8,643 bases of DNA from an uncultured Lachnospiraceae bacterium (lineage in GTDB: Bacteria > Bacillota_A > Clostridia > Lachnospirales > Lachnospiraceae), in contig CACXGS010000176.1 of assembly GCA_902767195.1 (NCBI GenBank), positions 1-8,643 of the forward strand, written 5' to 3'. Position 1 is the first letter of the stretch. Each line of letters begins with the position of its first letter. The position numbers and the translations under genes are program-made. Positions 2,525 through 8,643 of this stretch are shown piece by piece. A model generated the notes under the pieces. It was not told where the DNA came from and searched no databases. It worked only from the letters and a program-made list of their open reading frames with translations.

Positions 2525-2987
2525 TTTGACGACTCTGTGTTATATCGAGCGGGATGACTGCTACCTGATGCTCCATCGCGTCAGCAAGAAGAATGACATC
2601 AATAAGGATAAATGGATCGGGATCGGGGGGCATTTTGAGGACGATGAAAGTCCGGAGGAATGCCTCCTGCGGGAGGCCCGGGAGGAAACGGGACTTACCC
2701 TTACCTCCTGGAGGCTCCGGGGTATCGTTACCTTTATCTCGGACCGCTGGCAGACAGAGTATATGTTCCTGTATACCGCAGACGGCTTTACCGGGGATCT
2801 GATCTCCTGTGATGAAGGAAAGCTGGAATGGATCCCCAAAGACCGGATTTTCTCTCTCAATCTATGGGAGGGGGATAAGATTTTTCACGAACTGATATTT
2901 CAGGACCGGCCCTTCTTTTCTCTGAAGCTTTCTTATGTGGGAGATGAACTGGTAGAGGCGGTCCTTGACGGGGTAAATATGATATAA
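2514..2987 (+). CDS. NUDIX hydrolase, MutT/8-oxo-dGTP diphosphatase-like
   Basis: A protein of 157 residues when started at GTG 2514, with a typical single-domain NUDIX length. The Nudix box is perfect: G39, E45, R53-E54, E57-E58, G60 and L61 fit Gx5Ex7REUxEExGU, with E54, E57 and E58 as the Mg2+-binding glutamates. The N-terminal strand (LTTLCYIERD) followed by LMLHRV and DKWIGIGGHF is the usual opening of MutT-like 8-oxo-dGTP diphosphatases of clostridia. Such enzymes hydrolyse oxidised or other nucleoside triphosphates in the cytoplasm to nucleotide monophosphate and pyrophosphate. The exact substrate cannot be read from the sequence. The gene overlaps the end of the repeat gene by 11 nt (20 nt if ATG 2505 is used; a GTG at 2478 would extend it further but lacks a good binding site). 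This indicates translational coupling, although no functional link to the repeat protein is evident. Confidence 0.9.
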   Translation: MKTNLTTLCYIERDDCYLMLHRVSKKNDINKDKWIGIGGHFEDDESPEECLLREAREETGLTLTSWRLRGIVTFISDRWQTEYMFLYTADGFTGDLISCDEGKLEWIPKDRIFSLNLWEGDKIFHELIFQDRPFFSLKLSYVGDELVEAVLDGVNMI

Positions 2988-2991
2988 CGAG

Positions 2992-3027
2992 AAAAAACCG
3001 AGATGGCTGAATATCCCGGCTTTTCTT
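2992..3027 (+). terminator. Weak candidate intrinsic terminator after the NUDIX gene
   Basis: An A-run plus CCGAGAT (2993-3004) can pair imperfectly with ATCCCGGCTTTT (3013-3024), leaving an 8-nt loop and two A/C mismatches, and TTTTCTT forms the tail. The position just past the stop codon is right for a terminator, but the stem is poor, so this is tentative. Confidence 0.35.
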
Positions 3028-3071
3028 AGCACCATAGAAGGCGCTGAAAATTATGACACCATCATATTACC

Positions 3072-3102
3072 ATAACATGCCAGGAAAATCAAGAATTAAA
3101 AT
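3072..3102 (+). promoter_or_regulatory. Candidate promoter for the lipoprotein/zinc-ribbon gene pair
   Basis: TAAAAT at 3097-3102 matches the -10 consensus at five of six bases. ATAACA at 3072-3077 matches the -35 at four of six, with a long 19-nt spacer. Transcription would begin near 3109, inside the inverted repeat at 3101-3126. The surrounding gap is AT-rich and is the largest non-coding stretch of the window (161 bp). The assignment rests only on these hexamers. Confidence 0.3.
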
Positions 3103-3126
3103 ATGTTATCTGAACAAATAACATAT
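3101..3126 (+). promoter_or_regulatory. Perfect 9-bp inverted repeat, possible operator
   Basis: ATATGTTAT (3101-3109) and ATAACATAT (3118-3126) are exact reverse complements separated by 8 nt. A further copy of the ATAACAT core in direct orientation lies at 3072-3078. The palindrome touches the candidate -10 box and the presumed start of transcription, and ends 12 nt before the AGGAGG of the lipoprotein gene. It could bind a dimeric repressor or form a short 5'-leader stem. It has no T-tail, so a terminator is unlikely. Confidence 0.45.
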
Positions 3127-3148
3127 AAAAAACATACAGGAGGTACCC

Positions 3149-3577
3149 ATGATTGTCTACAAGAAACTAGGAAAAACAGTTCCCGTCACACTGCTGCTGA
3201 CTCTGATCTTCCTGGCTCTTGCTGCCTGCGGGAAGAAGAGTGAGATTCTGGTCCTCGAACTGGATGATAACCCTGCTTCCGGTTTCGAGTGGGAGATCTA
3301 TCAGGCCGATCCGATTTTCAAAGAAGAGCACAGTTATAAGGAAAAATCCAATAAGGCGGAGGGTGGTACGACGACGTTCACATTGACCCCTGAAGAACCT
3401 GGCTTCACTAACGTAGTCTTCCGACAGAAGATGAAGAAGGGGGAAGAAGTAGCTCTGCAGTATTCTTATTCGATCATTATCGATGAGAATTACGCCATAG
3501 AGGTTGTTAGCAGTGAAGGAAAGCTTGGCGAGAGTAATCTCACAAGTGACAAGATTCCGGAACCTGTAATCCGGTAA
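3149..3577 (+). CDS. Lipoprotein with chagasin-like (inhibitor I42) domain
   Basis: A 142-residue protein with a basic N-terminus, a hydrophobic stretch (residues 11-26) and a lipobox Leu24-Ala-Ala-Cys27, so it is predicted to be lipidated on Cys27 and held on the outer face of the membrane. The mature part has marks of the chagasin/I42 cysteine-peptidase-inhibitor family. NPASGFEW at 41-48 corresponds to the NPTTGYxW loop, and EGGTTTFTL at 71-79 to the glycine loop plus strand. FRQKM at 91-95 sits where the family has its RPW loop, but only the Arg is kept. The length fits one such domain. Chagasins block papain-type proteases by inserting three loops; with one loop altered, inhibition is uncertain here and the protein may only keep the fold. 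AGGAGG at 3138-3143 stands 5 nt before the ATG. The zinc-ribbon membrane gene follows closely and is probably in the same transcript. Confidence 0.75.
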   Translation: MIVYKKLGKTVPVTLLLTLIFLALAACGKKSEILVLELDDNPASGFEWEIYQADPIFKEEHSYKEKSNKAEGGTTTFTLTPEEPGFTNVVFRQKMKKGEEVALQYSYSIIIDENYAIEVVSSEGKLGESNLTSDKIPEPVIR

Positions 3578-3581
3578 AGAC

Positions 3582-3588
3582 AAGGAGG
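3582..3588 (+). promoter_or_regulatory. Ribosome binding site deciding the start of the zinc-ribbon gene
   Basis: AAGGAGG ends only 1 nt before ATG 3590 but 7 nt before ATG 3596. Normal spacing therefore selects the second ATG, removing two residues from the longest reading frame. Confidence 0.75.
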
Positions 3589-3595
3589 TATGGAT

Positions 3596-4165
3596 ATGTT
3601 TAACAACGTAGGAAACAAGCTGAAAGGTATGGCCAAGATCGTATTTTACATCGAAGCTGCTTTTGTGATTATTCTGTCACTGGTATTTATCATTGGAGGA
3701 ATGAAAACTACCTCTGATGCCGGATCCGGCGGCGCTGGCTTCCTGGTTTTACTCTTTGGTATTATCGGTGCTGCTGTAGGTCTGTTCCTGGCCTGGCTCA
3801 GTGTTGTTAAGCTTTACGCATATGGTGTCATCACCCAGTCCTGTGAAGAGATGGTAAGACTGAATCAGATGATGCTTGACCGGCCCGGATCCGTGACTCC
3901 TTCCTATCCCCGGGATGATCCTGCAAGAGGACCGGCTCCCGTAAGAGGTCCCGGCCCCGCACCTTCCCATGGCCCTGTGCCCACTCCCGGCCCTGTACCT
4001 TCTTCGGGTCCTGCACCGTCTTCCGGAGGAGCAATTCGCGGAAGCCTGGCTCCTAAGAGCGGGTCTCCCTTCCCGACACCTTCTGCCCCCAGAAGATGTC
4101 CCAACTGTGGAGCAGCCCTGTCGGAAGGTTCCATTTTCTGCGTGGAGTGCGGAAAGCGCTTATAA
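3596..4165 (+). CDS. Two-helix membrane protein with Pro-rich linker and C-terminal zinc ribbon
   Basis: A 189-residue protein. A short amphipathic start is followed by two predicted membrane helices (about 17-35 and 47-70), then a charged stretch containing CEEMVRLNQMM. A low-complexity Gly-Pro-Ala-Ser linker runs from about 109 to 165, and a zinc ribbon closes the protein with Cys168, Cys171, Cys182 and Cys185 (CPNCG and CVECG). Proteins of this layout (DUF-type zinc-ribbon membrane proteins) are common in clostridia and have no settled function. The ribbon and linker would face the cytoplasm if both helices form a hairpin with the N-terminus inside. The gene starts 18 nt after the chagasin-like lipoprotein gene and is probably co-transcribed with it. 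The linker is made of repeated GPxP/SSGP blocks and is GC-richer than the rest, as expected for its amino acids. Domain layout is well supported; function is not known. Confidence 0.85.
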   Translation: MFNNVGNKLKGMAKIVFYIEAAFVIILSLVFIIGGMKTTSDAGSGGAGFLVLLFGIIGAAVGLFLAWLSVVKLYAYGVITQSCEEMVRLNQMMLDRPGSVTPSYPRDDPARGPAPVRGPGPAPSHGPVPTPGPVPSSGPAPSSGGAIRGSLAPKSGSPFPTPSAPRRCPNCGAALSEGSIFCVECGKRL

Positions 4166-4168
4166 CCC

Positions 4169-4196
4169 TTGTTTTTGTAACGCAAGTTTTTAATAT
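4169..4196 (+). promoter_or_regulatory. Very tentative promoter ahead of the pel operon
   Basis: The 64-bp gap between the zinc-ribbon gene and the pelD-like gene contains TTGTTT (4169-4174), 16 nt, then TAATAT (4191-4196). These match the -35 and -10 hexamers at three and four bases. The region is AT-rich and the operon needs a start somewhere, but read-through from the upstream pair is equally possible. A clear GGAGG at 4218-4222 stands 7 nt before the pelD ATG. Confidence 0.2.
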
Positions 4197-4229
4197 ATCA
4201 CTCTGTAACCTGAACACGGAGGTCTTTCC

Positions 4230-6008
4230 ATGAAAACGATTCTATTAACAGGCCGAACGGAGCTACTGTCCACGACCCTGCTGGAACAATTGTCCGTCCG
4301 GTTTTCTGTTGTGTTAACAACCGAAGACAGAAAGTGGGATAATGATATTGTCCGGGCTTATCATGTTCAGCCGGGATCCCCCTCTTTTGAGGAGTTGTTC
4401 TGGTCTTATGATTTTAATGCAGTATGGTATATTGCCCCATACTGTGACGGACAGCCCATGCCGGAAGATATGAAGCCCATGAAGACCATTCTTCATCATT
4501 GCCGGGAATTTTCCGTTCCCAAGCTGATTGTTTTGTCTTCCTCCTACCTGTCCCCGGATCAGATCCGGCTGGAGGAAGAGGTGCTTTCTTCCTCGGACCA
4601 CAATATCCCTCAGACCACCGTGCTCCGGGCACCATTCCTGCTCACCGGCATCAATGAATACAACATGCTGGGGACCCTTTTCTCCTCCCTGTATACCAAA
4701 TCAGAGGCCAGGATTCCCGAGGTCAGTGAAGGCCGCTACGAATTCCTGGATTTAAAGGATCTGGTTCGTCTGATGACCAGGATCACCCTGTCGGCCAGAG
4801 AACAGGGATTCTATTCCCTGCCCGGTGAATATGTGATCAGTCTTTCCCATCTGGATGAGGAGATGAAGAACATCCATGCAGGAAGCAAACTGATTCCGAC
4901 ACAACCCCTGCTGACAGCGGAGGAAACGGAGAATATCTCTGTCCTCACCCGCAAATACATGTACCGGACCCATGACCAGAAGGCTCTGGATTTCCGGAGT
5001 CTGTACCTTGAGTATGAAGACCGTCAGAAAAAGAGGGCAGGTGGCTTCTTTTCCCGCCTGTCCTCCTGGAGAGAACGGCTTCCCGGCCCTGTCATGGTCT
5101 TTATCGATATTGCGGTACTGTTCATTCTGGCCCAGTATATTTCCAATTATACGGCAGATAATGTCTACTTCCGTTTTATTGACGTCCGGCTCCTCTTTAT
5201 CATTATGATCGCTGTCTTCCACGGACTGCGGGCAGGTGTATTTGCCGCGATCCTGGAATGCATCGTTTTGTATTTTATCTACCTGGATAACATGGGCATC
5301 AGCAGCCTCCAGCTTTTCTATAATGTGGAGAACTGGATCCCCTTTGTGCTTTATATCGTGGCCGGTGCCATTACCGGTTATTTCTCTGACCTGAAAGAGA
5401 GTGAAAAAGCCCTGGTTGTCCGGGAAAACGATCTCCTCAGGGAGAAATATCTCTTTTTAAATGATATGTATAACGTAACCTCTGAGGCCAAGGATGAATA
5501 CAAAAGACAGATCCTTACCTTTGACCACAGTTACGGGAAGATTTATCACGCCATTGAACACATGAGCAGAGATTCCGTGGAGGAAGTCTGTTCCGTGATC
5601 CCGGAAGTGATCGAAGACCTGCTAAATAATACTTCCGCTGCTGTTTTCCGTATGGATTCTTCCCAAAAAAGGGTTGAATTCCTGGCAGGCGACCGAACCT
5701 TTTCCTCAGGGGTCGCCAGAAATCTGTCCCTCCAGGAAATGGAGGAAGCCCTTTCCTGCATGAATGAAGGAAATGTATGGAGAAACACGGCTCTTGCTCC
5801 CGGCATCCCCATGTATGCCATGAAGATCGACCCCAGGGCTTCCGGTAAAGAAGAAAGCAGCAGGGATTCTCTGATCATTGCCATCTGGGATGCAACACCG
5901 GAGCAAATGAACGATTACTATTCCAATCAGTTTGAGATTATCTGTCGGCTTGCCGGCTACGCCCTGGAGCGGGCCGGACTGACACAAGAAGAATCGAGGC
6001 AAGCATGA
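4230..6008 (+). CDS. pelD: PelD-like membrane protein with N-terminal SDR-like domain and GAF domain, no GGDEF
   Basis: A 592-residue protein. Residues 1 to about 235 look like an atypical NAD-dependent epimerase/SDR domain: strand ILLTGRT, later KLIVLSSSYL (99-107) and TTVLRAPFLLTG (129-140). The nucleotide loop keeps only Gly8, with Glu11 and Ser14 where glycines are usual, and no YxxxK is seen after the SSS strand, so it is probably non-catalytic. Four membrane helices follow (about 288-305, 319-333, 335-352, 369-385), then a coiled-coil linker (385-425) and a GAF-like domain (about 430-585) that reaches the C-terminus. Four helices plus GAF is the PelD layout, and PelE and PelA-type genes follow directly. 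In Pseudomonas PelD, a degenerate GGDEF after the GAF domain binds c-di-GMP through an RxxD site and switches on Pel synthesis; that domain is absent here. The gene opens the operon and overlaps pelE by 4 nt. Assignment rests on layout plus neighbours, with no alignment available. Confidence 0.8.
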   Translation: MKTILLTGRTELLSTTLLEQLSVRFSVVLTTEDRKWDNDIVRAYHVQPGSPSFEELFWSYDFNAVWYIAPYCDGQPMPEDMKPMKTILHHCREFSVPKLIVLSSSYLSPDQIRLEEEVLSSSDHNIPQTTVLRAPFLLTGINEYNMLGTLFSSLYTKSEARIPEVSEGRYEFLDLKDLVRLMTRITLSAREQGFYSLPGEYVISLSHLDEEMKNIHAGSKLIPTQPLLTAEETENISVLTRKYMYRTHDQKALDFRSLYLEYEDRQKKRAGGFFSRLSSWRERLPGPVMVFIDIAVLFILAQYISNYTADNVYFRFIDVRLLFIIMIAVFHGLRAGVFAAILECIVLYFIYLDNMGISSLQLFYNVENWIPFVLYIVAGAITGYFSDLKESEKALVVRENDLLREKYLFLNDMYNVTSEAKDEYKRQILTFDHSYGKIYHAIEHMSRDSVEEVCSVIPEVIEDLLNNTSAAVFRMDSSQKRVEFLAGDRTFSSGVARNLSLQEMEEALSCMNEGNVWRNTALAPGIPMYAMKIDPRASGKEESSRDSLIIAIWDATPEQMNDYYSNQFEIICRLAGYALERAGLTQEESRQA

Positions 6009-6916
6009 TTCCACTTTTGATCATACACGGATTGTGCATACTGATCCTTCTGGTCCGGAAGAAGATGGGGCTTTTGCACTGCGGCCCGGCAATCCTCTTC
6101 CTGGCAGCCCTTCTCCCCGTATTCGGCATACTGTGCGTCTTATCCGTGGAGAATAAAGCCAGAAAAGACCAGCCCGGAGAAGATCTGTCCGATCTGAACC
6201 AGTTGAAAATTGAGGATGACATTTACCGAAGCATCCGAATCAAGCCGGATACCGATTCCGATACCATTGTTCCTGTGGAGGAATCCCTTCTGATCAACCA
6301 TCCCGGCAAGCGGAGAAAACTCCTTCTGCATCTGCTGGGGCTGAATCCTTCCCATTATGTGCCTGTCCTGCGGACAGCCGGCCAAAATGACGATACAGAG
6401 GTCGTCCACTATGCCGTCACGGCACTGGTGGAACTCAGAAAGGACTACAACAACCGGATCTTTAAAATGGACCGTTTGCTGGAAGAAGGAAAGGCAGACA
6501 AGGAATTACTCCAGGAAGCTCTTCTTTTGGATGAGGAGTATCTTTCCTCCTCCCTCCCTGAGAAGGAGGAGAAAAGAGAGAGGCTTCTCCATGCGGACAG
6601 AATACTGAGTGAGCTTTATCCCTGTGCAGACAATGCCGATGAAGCCTTTCGAATTTTAGAGAAACGGGCTTACTGTGCCCTGGCTCTGGGTGATAATGAC
6701 CAGTCTGTTGAAATGGTCAACCGGATGATTACCACGGCCCCGGAAAGGGAGGAAGGATACCTTCTGAAGATCCGCTGCTTCAGTGCAGGGAAGGACCGGA
6801 AAGGAATCGACTCTGTTCTGGAAAGTCTCCGTGCCAGGCGCGTCTTTCTCTCTGAGAAAGGAAGGGAAACCGTCCGCTTCTGGCAGATGGACGAAACCCT
6901 TAGTGAAACATATTAA
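6005..6916 (+). CDS. pelE: PelE-like membrane/TPR protein
   Basis: A 303-residue protein whose ATG overlaps the TGA of the pelD-like gene (ATGA), a sign of translational coupling. Two membrane helices lie at about 2-17 and 26-47. A charged linker and a helical cytoplasmic part follow, containing DDTEVVHYAVTALVELRKDY (129-148), the acidic/basic helix around 155-205, and a TPR-like pair of helices around 213-275 (EAFRILEKRAYCALALGDND and following). Two helices plus TPR matches PelE, which binds PelD and helps assemble the Pel synthase complex in the membrane. The length is close to that of Pseudomonas PelE. Order and overlap support the name more than sequence motifs do, since PelE has no catalytic residues to check. 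An unrelated TPR membrane protein is the alternative. Confidence 0.75.
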   Translation: MIPLLIIHGLCILILLVRKKMGLLHCGPAILFLAALLPVFGILCVLSVENKARKDQPGEDLSDLNQLKIEDDIYRSIRIKPDTDSDTIVPVEESLLINHPGKRRKLLLHLLGLNPSHYVPVLRTAGQNDDTEVVHYAVTALVELRKDYNNRIFKMDRLLEEGKADKELLQEALLLDEEYLSSSLPEKEEKRERLLHADRILSELYPCADNADEAFRILEKRAYCALALGDNDQSVEMVNRMITTAPEREEGYLLKIRCFSAGKDRKGIDSVLESLRARRVFLSEKGRETVRFWQMDETLSETY

Positions 6917-6942: not shown

Positions 6943-8643
6943 ATGCGAAAGAAATCAAGTATCTACTCTTTAATTGTTATATGGCTGGTCTTTATGTTTC
7001 TTTTCACCATTGTAATTATTGTGGGACGAAATATTATTTACACGGTTCAGGGCAAGAATCTGAAGATTCTCGATCCCGACGCCTTTGTTGTTAAGGAGAA
7101 GGACAGGAAAGAAGCCAGACCGGATACCCTGATCCTTTACCAGAACAATCTGGACAGCAAGAAAGGCTTCTGGGAAATGCGGGCCATATTAAAGCAGATG
7201 AGGCTCCCCTGCAGCAAATGTAAGACCGCCGATTTCAAACCTGAGATCCTTAAAGACTATCACCGCGTCATTATCTCGGTTTCCGATGCCAGTGTGATCG
7301 AGCCTTTTATCCCCCAGATCCGGGAATATGTGGAAGAGGGCGGATATATTATGTTTGCCATTCCTCCTCATGTATCCCAGTCGCCGGAGACCATGGACCT
7401 GATGGGAATCCAGACTCTTAGTGAGAATGAACTTGCCACAGTCAAAGGTTTTACTGCAGTGGGTGATTTTATGCCCGGAGGAAGCCGTAAGCTCTCTATC
7501 AGCACGCCTTACGAATCCTCCCTGGATGCCAGAGTCAGTGAGGACTGCAGGATCTATATGACTTCCACGGATAAGCGGGCTGTTCCTCTGATCTGGAAAA
7601 GAAAAGCAGGAAAAGGCGGTGTCATCGTCGATAATTTCGGTTTTATCGAAAAAGCCTACCGGGGATATCACTGCGCAGCCTACACCTTAATGGACGAATG
7701 CACGGTATGGCCTGTTATTAACGGGTCTGCTTTCTATATCGACGACTTCCCTTCTCCGGTACCTCCCGGAGACAGCTACCAGATTTTACAGGATTACGGG
7801 ATGGATATCAAAGATTTCTATACCCAGGTCTGGTGGAAGGATGTCAGCAACCTGGCAAGAAAATACAATATCCGATATACGGGACTGATCATCGAGATGT
7901 ACAATGCCCAGACTTCCGGGGAGCTTCCCCGCCAGACGGATACCACCCGTTTCGAATATTTCGGCAACATGCTCCTGGATATGGGAGGCGAGCTGGGAAT
8001 TCACGGTTACAATCATATGCCACTGGTTCTGGAAGATTTCGATTATCTTGGCAAGTATTATTCTTATTTCCAGTGGATCAGTGTGGACGAGATCCGGGAT
8101 TCCATCTCTGAGGTTCTGGATTTTTCCCACAGTGTCTTTCCCCACCAGACCTTCACTGTTTATGTGCCGCCTTCCAATATCATTTCCAAAGAAGGCAGAA
8201 AGGTTCTGGCGGAGGATTTCCCGGAGATTAAATGCATCGCCAGCCTCTATCTCCCGGACCAGAACGACGTATCCTACGCCACCAATTTCGAGATTACGGA
8301 GGATGGCCTGATCCAGACGCCCCGTATCACATCCGGTTATGTTCTGGATGATTATATGAATGCTGCCGCCTGTTCCGAGCTTTACCTCCACTGTGTCAAC
8401 ACACATTTCCAGCACCCGGATGACGTGCTGGATGTGGACAGGGGAGCGAATCTGGGATGGCAGGAGCTTTACAGCCGCCTGGAGAACTATGTCTCCTGGC
8501 TCCACAATGCCCTTCCTTCTCTGCGGGCCCTGACGGGAAGCGAGATGGCTGCTGCGGTTCAGCGTTATTCCAATATCCGGATGAAAAAAAAGGTGGGGAA
8601 AAACAAGATTAAACTGTCTCTGGACGGTTTTGCTGATGAAGCC
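6943..8643 (+). CDS. pelA: PelA-type polysaccharide deacetylase (DUF2194), 3'-truncated by the window
   Basis: The frame opens at ATG 6943 (GGAG at 6929-6932) and stays open to the last base, giving 567 residues without a stop. A single N-terminal membrane helix (about 6-28) anchors an extracellular protein. Residues about 60-250 form an alpha/beta region (LILYQNN, HRVIISVSD, GGVIVDNFG). From about 262 there is a deacetylase domain with the expected motifs: YIDDFPSP with Asp267 and Asp268, GIHGYNHM with His354 and His358, YVPPSN at 407-412, and HFQHPDD with His491. The Asp-His-His set fits the metal site of CE4-like enzymes. In Gram-positive pel loci the deacetylase of PelA is a separate DUF2194 protein that partly removes acetyl groups from the GalNAc-rich polymer outside the membrane. 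No hydrolase domain is seen N-terminal to it, unlike Pseudomonas PelA. It lies 26 nt after pelE, in the same operon. The C-terminus is outside the window. Confidence 0.85.
   Translation, partial: MRKKSSIYSLIVIWLVFMFLFTIVIIVGRNIIYTVQGKNLKILDPDAFVVKEKDRKEARPDTLILYQNNLDSKKGFWEMRAILKQMRLPCSKCKTADFKPEILKDYHRVIISVSDASVIEPFIPQIREYVEEGGYIMFAIPPHVSQSPETMDLMGIQTLSENELATVKGFTAVGDFMPGGSRKLSISTPYESSLDARVSEDCRIYMTSTDKRAVPLIWKRKAGKGGVIVDNFGFIEKAYRGYHCAAYTLMDECTVWPVINGSAFYIDDFPSPVPPGDSYQILQDYGMDIKDFYTQVWWKDVSNLARKYNIRYTGLIIEMYNAQTSGELPRQTDTTRFEYFGNMLLDMGGELGIHGYNHMPLVLEDFDYLGKYYSYFQWISVDEIRDSISEVLDFSHSVFPHQTFTVYVPPSNIISKEGRKVLAEDFPEIKCIASLYLPDQNDVSYATNFEITEDGLIQTPRITSGYVLDDYMNAAACSELYLHCVNTHFQHPDDVLDVDRGANLGWQELYSRLENYVSWLHNALPSLRALTGSEMAAAVQRYSNIRMKKKVGKNKIKLSLDGFADEA

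Follow-up and report, generated by a model that had tools for sequence, protein, structure and literature searches.

According to the accessible text of PMC7112168, streptococci, clostridia, and actinobacteria have extended PelDs with an epimerase-like domain that is probably inactive, and those of streptococci lack the GGDEF domain, a loss regarded there as unsurprising because streptococci do not use c-di-GMP. The SDR-GAF form of PelD without GGDEF is named class IV in the accessible part of PMC12345266, where deletion of pelD is reported to abolish Pel in S. intermedius. In B. cereus PelD, which retains the receptor domain, Arg363, Asp366, and Arg395 are each required for c-di-GMP binding and for biofilm (PMC7112168, accessible text).

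Here, we describe a pelD gene on 8,643 nucleotides of DNA from an uncultured Lachnospiraceae bacterium (contig CACXGS010000176.1), the whole of which is referred to as the window. The gene (positions 4230–6008, + strand) encodes 592 aa and is preceded by GGAGG at 4218–4222 (+), from its sequence a probable ribosome-binding site. The domain features of class IV are all found in its product, namely a degenerate SDR-like domain, membrane helices followed by GAF, and the lack of GGDEF. Judged by this architecture, the ORF belongs to class IV, a kind of PelD already described (PMC7112168 and PMC12345266, in their accessible parts), in line with the original suggestion that it may fall in a known subset of reduced PelDs. 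With the streptococcal class IV protein SiPelD of S. intermedius it shares the degenerate N-terminal SDR domain, the membrane helices, the GAF domain, and the absence of GGDEF, as well as the position as first gene of what is probably a pelDEADAFG-type operon. The PelDs of B. cereus ATCC 10987 and P. aeruginosa likewise have membrane helices and a cytosolic GAF domain in a Pel synthase operon, but are described in the accessible sources as having a GGDEF receptor domain and no SDR domain. No protein labelled as streptococcal was among the 30 obtained in the homologue search with the A1 profile, by which two fragments were gained.

The AlphaFold2 model of the window PelD (mean pLDDT 83.1, pTM 0.53) comprises, in this order, an alpha/beta domain, membrane-type helices, a long helix that reaches residue 445, and a C-terminal alpha/beta domain that closes with a helix. 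The first domain (residues 1–270; 4230–5039, +) resembles NDP-sugar epimerases and other SDR enzymes in Foldseek and VIA-align, and profile A1 found its best PDB match in 3m2p (E=9.4e-7), the PDB matches of A1 and A2 being mostly SDR enzymes. A pattern search of this domain found neither GxxGxxG nor YxxxK, and by its sequence the domain is degenerate. Membrane-type helices were modelled at residues 286–308, 319–331, 333–355, and from 366 onwards, so placing the membrane part, with approximate boundaries, at residues ~286–390 (5085–5399, +). The coiled-coil linker (residues ~391–445; 5400–5564, +) is an extension of the long helix 366–445, within which confidence is low at about 421–429, and the GAF-like domain recognized by hhalign (residues 446–592; 5565–6005, +) is the last in the protein. 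Thus, the helices, coiled coil, GAF domain, and stop had been described correctly from the sequence, while the degenerate N-terminal SDR domain, itself part of the class IV definition, had been overlooked. Used as a single query against PDB sequences, the window PelD matched nothing; its best NCBIfam match was KdpD at only E=0.026, and a weak Pfam match to DUF4118 in the membrane part (E=0.00095) fell below the cut-off. The 50 Foldseek matches listed for each of the window model and the GGDEF-bearing control L024 are SDR-type enzymes, as is the VIA list for the window model; no PelD structure was among the Foldseek and VIA matches listed, which are uninformative on the GAF/GGDEF part because all are SDR-type.

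The gene context, as far as the window reaches, is that of a pel operon and, together with the domain order, bears out the prediction of a PelD that ends after its GAF domain. Downstream lie a pelE-like gene (6005–6916, +, 303 aa), with a weak TPR_14 match (E=0.096) and belonging to the gene family that follows pelD in relatives, and a pelA-type deacetylase gene with DUF2194 (PF09960, E=6.6e-139; 6943–8643, +), of which 567 aa are read before the window end cuts it. The positions of pelF and pelG fall beyond the window end and were observed in relatives such as L001, the nearest genome locus, whose PelD is 51% identical to that of the window. In L001, a divergent GH114 gene is followed by pelD, a pelE-like gene, DUF2194, DUF3492 with glycosyltransferase (pelF), PelG (PF16933, E=4.7e-118), and DUF4832-GH114; the sister genomes G001 and G002 contain one PelG each. 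Just 5' of pelD, the window holds a gene (3590–4165, +) for a membrane protein that combines a zinc ribbon at its C terminus with a proline-rich linker; no equivalent was seen at that place in L001. Before this gene come a short protein with a lipoprotein-like start and a match to the Chagasin-type peptidase inhibitor I42 (3149–3577, +; E=1.1e-8) and a long repeat protein (2–2524, +) whose frame is still open at the start of the window and which weakly resembles RHS repeats (E=7.2e-7), no individual stretch being significant. A promoter and terminator scan of 2950–4300 returned 2 and 1 sites, respectively, against shuffle means of 1.6 and 1.3.

The pelD stop and the pelE start share ATGA (6005–6008), which leaves no room for a GGDEF domain, and the tail of ~100 residues that distinguishes GGDEF-bearing relatives has no counterpart in the window PelD; on both grounds, the claim that the domain is missing stands. 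These relatives, the GGDEF-bearing SDR-type PelDs (L003–L006, L013–L015, L018, L024, and family members), are homologous to the window PelD over its whole length at ~30% identity, but add ~100 residues with an invariant RxxD and a later Arg. From 34 of the 37 located GAF+GGDEF C-termini, profile A3 was built, in which R39, P83, R195, D198, G201, and R226 are invariant (34/34) and the spacing of R195, D198, and R226 is like that of Arg363, Asp366, and Arg395 in B. cereus PelD. The GGDEF identity of the extra residues is indicated by matches of A3 to PDB 6khu (E=7.3e-4) and 3ign (E=0.044), by Pfam GGDEF matches in 4/34 rows (best E=0.0026), and by the RxxD residues themselves. The name GAF for the preceding domain comes from the literature and from weak hits of Pfam models to A3 sequences (GAF in 2/34 rows, best E=0.0092; GAF_3 in 1/34, E=0.0026). 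The Pfam family PelD_GGDEF (PF16963) was tried as a domain test and gave zero matches over cut-off in 24 genomes; since the GGDEF-bearing genomes are also without a match, it is unusable for this purpose.

When the 13 GGDEF-less C-termini (A4) were compared with the GAF+GGDEF profile, as a check for a GGDEF fold, they aligned with the GAF half only (positions 4–132; hhalign probability 99.9, E=2.6e-32) and with nothing beyond. At the level of residues, the columns of A1 that correspond to R195, D198, and R226 are empty in all 29 GGDEF-less rows, the window among them, and read R, D, R in 11/11 GGDEF-bearing rows. By this alignment, the RxxD I-site, whose absence had been predicted, and the later Arg have no counterpart in the window PelD. 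The GAF arginine R39 is kept in only 4/29 GGDEF-less versus 11/11 GGDEF-bearing rows, as if a GGDEF-linked constraint had been relaxed in the former. Searched against the 24 whole genomes (E<=0.001), A3 gave a single match in each: full length or nearly so in 11 (G003–G006, G013–G015, G018, G019, G021, G024, the halves in G019 lying on separate contigs and being counted as one gene) and within positions 2–143 only in 13 (G001, G002, G007–G012, G016, G017, G020, G022, G023). A detached second PelD-type domain was therefore not seen.

The 24 loci came from a scan of genome contigs, and their PelDs either end like that of the window or run ~100 residues longer. The short form occupies a 14-row clade (support 100/100; 43–51% identity) and a second, 13-row clade, in total 27 of the 46 tree rows, the two subclades being joined at 90/44. 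A rooted tree, obtained by a short search with three distant members as root and with the GGDEF-less subclades on long branches, places 19 GGDEF-less rows in a single clade (SH-aLRT 98) inside 37 GGDEF-bearing rows. This nesting points to domain loss, once or twice, and a tree with two losses was not rejected (p-AU 0.348). All contrasts between GGDEF-less and GGDEF-bearing PelDs reflect these one or two evolutionary events and hence are not independent. In the family of G001, 71 of 397 sampled genomes matched the window PelD; among the best 30 loci, 28 have a tail of 94–112 residues, L056 has one of ~48, and only that of G001 (L031) has none. In its genus, 4/24 genomes matched; two are the GGDEF-less G001 and G002, one contributes a fragment of 121 aa, and one a frame of 735 aa with 21% identity.

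The proposed search for diguanylate cyclases was carried out in relatives. The resulting numbers refer to genomes of unstated completeness, and the PelDs of the two sisters are 49–51% identical to that of the window. In these sister genomes of its subclade, PF00990 (GGDEF) was matched 55 times (G001) and 17 times (G002), while streptococci are reported to be without diguanylate cyclases (PMC7112168 and PMC12345266, accessible text). The other GGDEF-less genomes gave 0 (G007, G008, G011, G017), 1 (G012, G016, G020, G022), 2 (G023), 7 (G009), and 8 matches (G010), and the GGDEF-bearing genomes 3 (G003), 7 (G004, G005), 11 (G006), 8 (G013), 2 (G014), 5 (G015), 4 (G018), 41 (G019), 20 (G021), and 10 (G024). 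EAL matches numbered 25 in G001, 9 in G002, 3 in G009, 2 in G010, and 1 in G022; EAL was found in none of the GGDEF-less G007, G008, G011, G012, G016, G017, G020, and G023, and among GGDEF-bearing genomes it was missing from G014. An intact GG[DE]EF motif was present in 19/20 of the stretches examined in G001, 6/11 in G002, 2/5 in G009, and 3/4 in G010. Nine of the 11 genomes of the second GGDEF-less subclade have 0–2 GGDEF matches, so that loss of the PelD domain accompanies loss of c-di-GMP enzymes there, as in streptococci. By these counts, the second subclade mostly fits the streptococcal pattern, from which the two genomes of the window's subclade depart. Among the 24 genomes, G024 was the one with a PilZ match. 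For all their GGDEF and EAL domains, G001 and G002 thus matched neither PilZ nor either of the c-di-GMP riboswitch classes (I and II), which leaves their c-di-GMP effectors unaccounted for.

Directly 5' of pelD and on the same strand (+), a c-di-GMP-I riboswitch reaching the gathering score was found in 5/11 GGDEF-bearing genomes (L004 9808–9905, L005 9846–9944, L006 9799–9892, L013 9833–9928, L015 9807–9902). Since four of the five belong to one Eisenbergiella-like clade, a gain there is as possible as a loss elsewhere. No c-di-GMP riboswitch was detected in the window (search to E 5) or at the 13 GGDEF-less loci; upstream sequence is lacking for L022 and amounts to ~330 bases for L002. Genome-wide, c-di-GMP-I was found in 9/11 GGDEF-bearing versus 1/13 GGDEF-less genomes (G010, off its pel contig) and c-di-GMP-II in G018 only; because scoring covered at most 117 (c-di-GMP-I) and 119 (c-di-GMP-II) candidates per genome, against totals of 180 and 225 in G001 and of 123 and 108 in G002, these genome-wide absences are provisional. 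The L006 leader has a terminator-like hairpin with a U run immediately after the aptamer, then pelD, and it likely acts by transcriptional control. A riboswitch combined with a GGDEF-bearing PelD likely amounts to two c-di-GMP inputs on one operon; none of the papers listed in full-text searches of the open-licence literature, judged by their listings, dealt with pelD leaders.

Several other neighbours of pelD were recorded. In L006 (5417–6976, −) and L015 (8651–9682, −), an EAL-domain gene lies shortly before the pel operon; the one in L006 includes a MotA/ExbB-like part and is accompanied by a c-di-GMP-I match of its own near the cut-off (7071–7167, −; 35.9 bits). A phage-type integrase gene adjoins pelD in L006 and L004, and Clostridiales-1 RNA (RF01699) occurs a few kb 5' of two GGDEF-less pel loci (L011 7252–7431, L016 3591–3776). 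The accessible text of PMC7112168 raises the idea of CotH as a replacement regulator, and streptococcal pel loci have a CotH gene. In our set, however, CotH adjoins pelG in 10/11 GGDEF-bearing genomes (not G021) and in 0/13 GGDEF-less ones, several of whose contigs are short (in G008 it lies ~60 kb from pel on the same contig); CotH therefore does not track the GGDEF-less state here.

Taken together, the window ORF belongs to the class IV PelDs and probably scaffolds a Gram-positive Pel synthase that is no longer under direct c-di-GMP control. Its SDR-like domain, membrane helices, and GAF domain would still assemble the PelE/F/G complex, activation would be independent of c-di-GMP on PelD, and Pel output would depend on transcription, on constitutive activity, or on a different signal at the SDR or GAF domain. 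Since GGDEF and EAL domains remain plentiful in the sister genomes, the domain loss is better read as an uncoupling of Pel from c-di-GMP than as a by-product of c-di-GMP loss. More tentatively, deletion of the PelD receptor domain may have freed the synthase from a large c-di-GMP network and left an SDR-GAF module that responds to a different cue, such as NAD(H) or a nucleotide sugar; the GGDEF-bearing relatives, some with the pelD leader riboswitch as a further c-di-GMP input, would then represent the opposite state.

Control by c-di-GMP could instead persist through a separate receptor protein or a trans-acting transcription factor that replaces the lost domain. The wealth of GGDEF and EAL domains in the sister genomes, with effectors unaccounted for, speaks for this possibility; yet neither sister has PilZ, a second PelD-type domain, or a c-di-GMP-I/-II match (117/180 and 119/225 candidates scored in G001), and the riboswitch is absent from the window, L001, and L002 loci, so that we consider it unlikely. 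Binding of c-di-GMP to the window PelD at another site, such as the GAF domain or the dimer interface, is very improbable given that the three B. cereus contact residues have no counterpart and that the arginine which the GAF domains of all GGDEF-bearing members share is not retained. There is also only a slim chance that the product of the operon is not Pel but another polymer, to which PelD-type control would not apply: pelF and pelG lie beyond the window end, and the accessible text of PMC7112168 leaves this possibility for some clostridial loci, but L001 has DUF2194, DUF3492 with glycosyltransferase, and PelG in pel order. Damage or truncation of pelD, which the tail of only ~48 aa in L056 might exemplify, is scarcely credible for the window gene, because the short form is conserved, with the same end in 27/46 tree rows and two deep clades, and open pelE and pelA follow directly after pelD.

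With a GGDEF-less PelD occurring in a clade whose two sequenced members are rich in GGDEF and EAL domains, this form need not go together with a loss of c-di-GMP signalling. While class IV PelD as a kind is known, what is new here is the nesting of GGDEF-less among GGDEF-bearing PelDs, the I-site columns, the c-di-GMP-rich sisters, and the contrast in pelD-leader riboswitches, and it is the c-di-GMP-rich sisters that deserve attention. The GGDEF-bearing relatives, some with a pelD riboswitch, offer a natural comparison for asking what switches on Pel without c-di-GMP. If the synthase has indeed been uncoupled and answers another signal, Pel and c-di-GMP would be separable traits inside one family.
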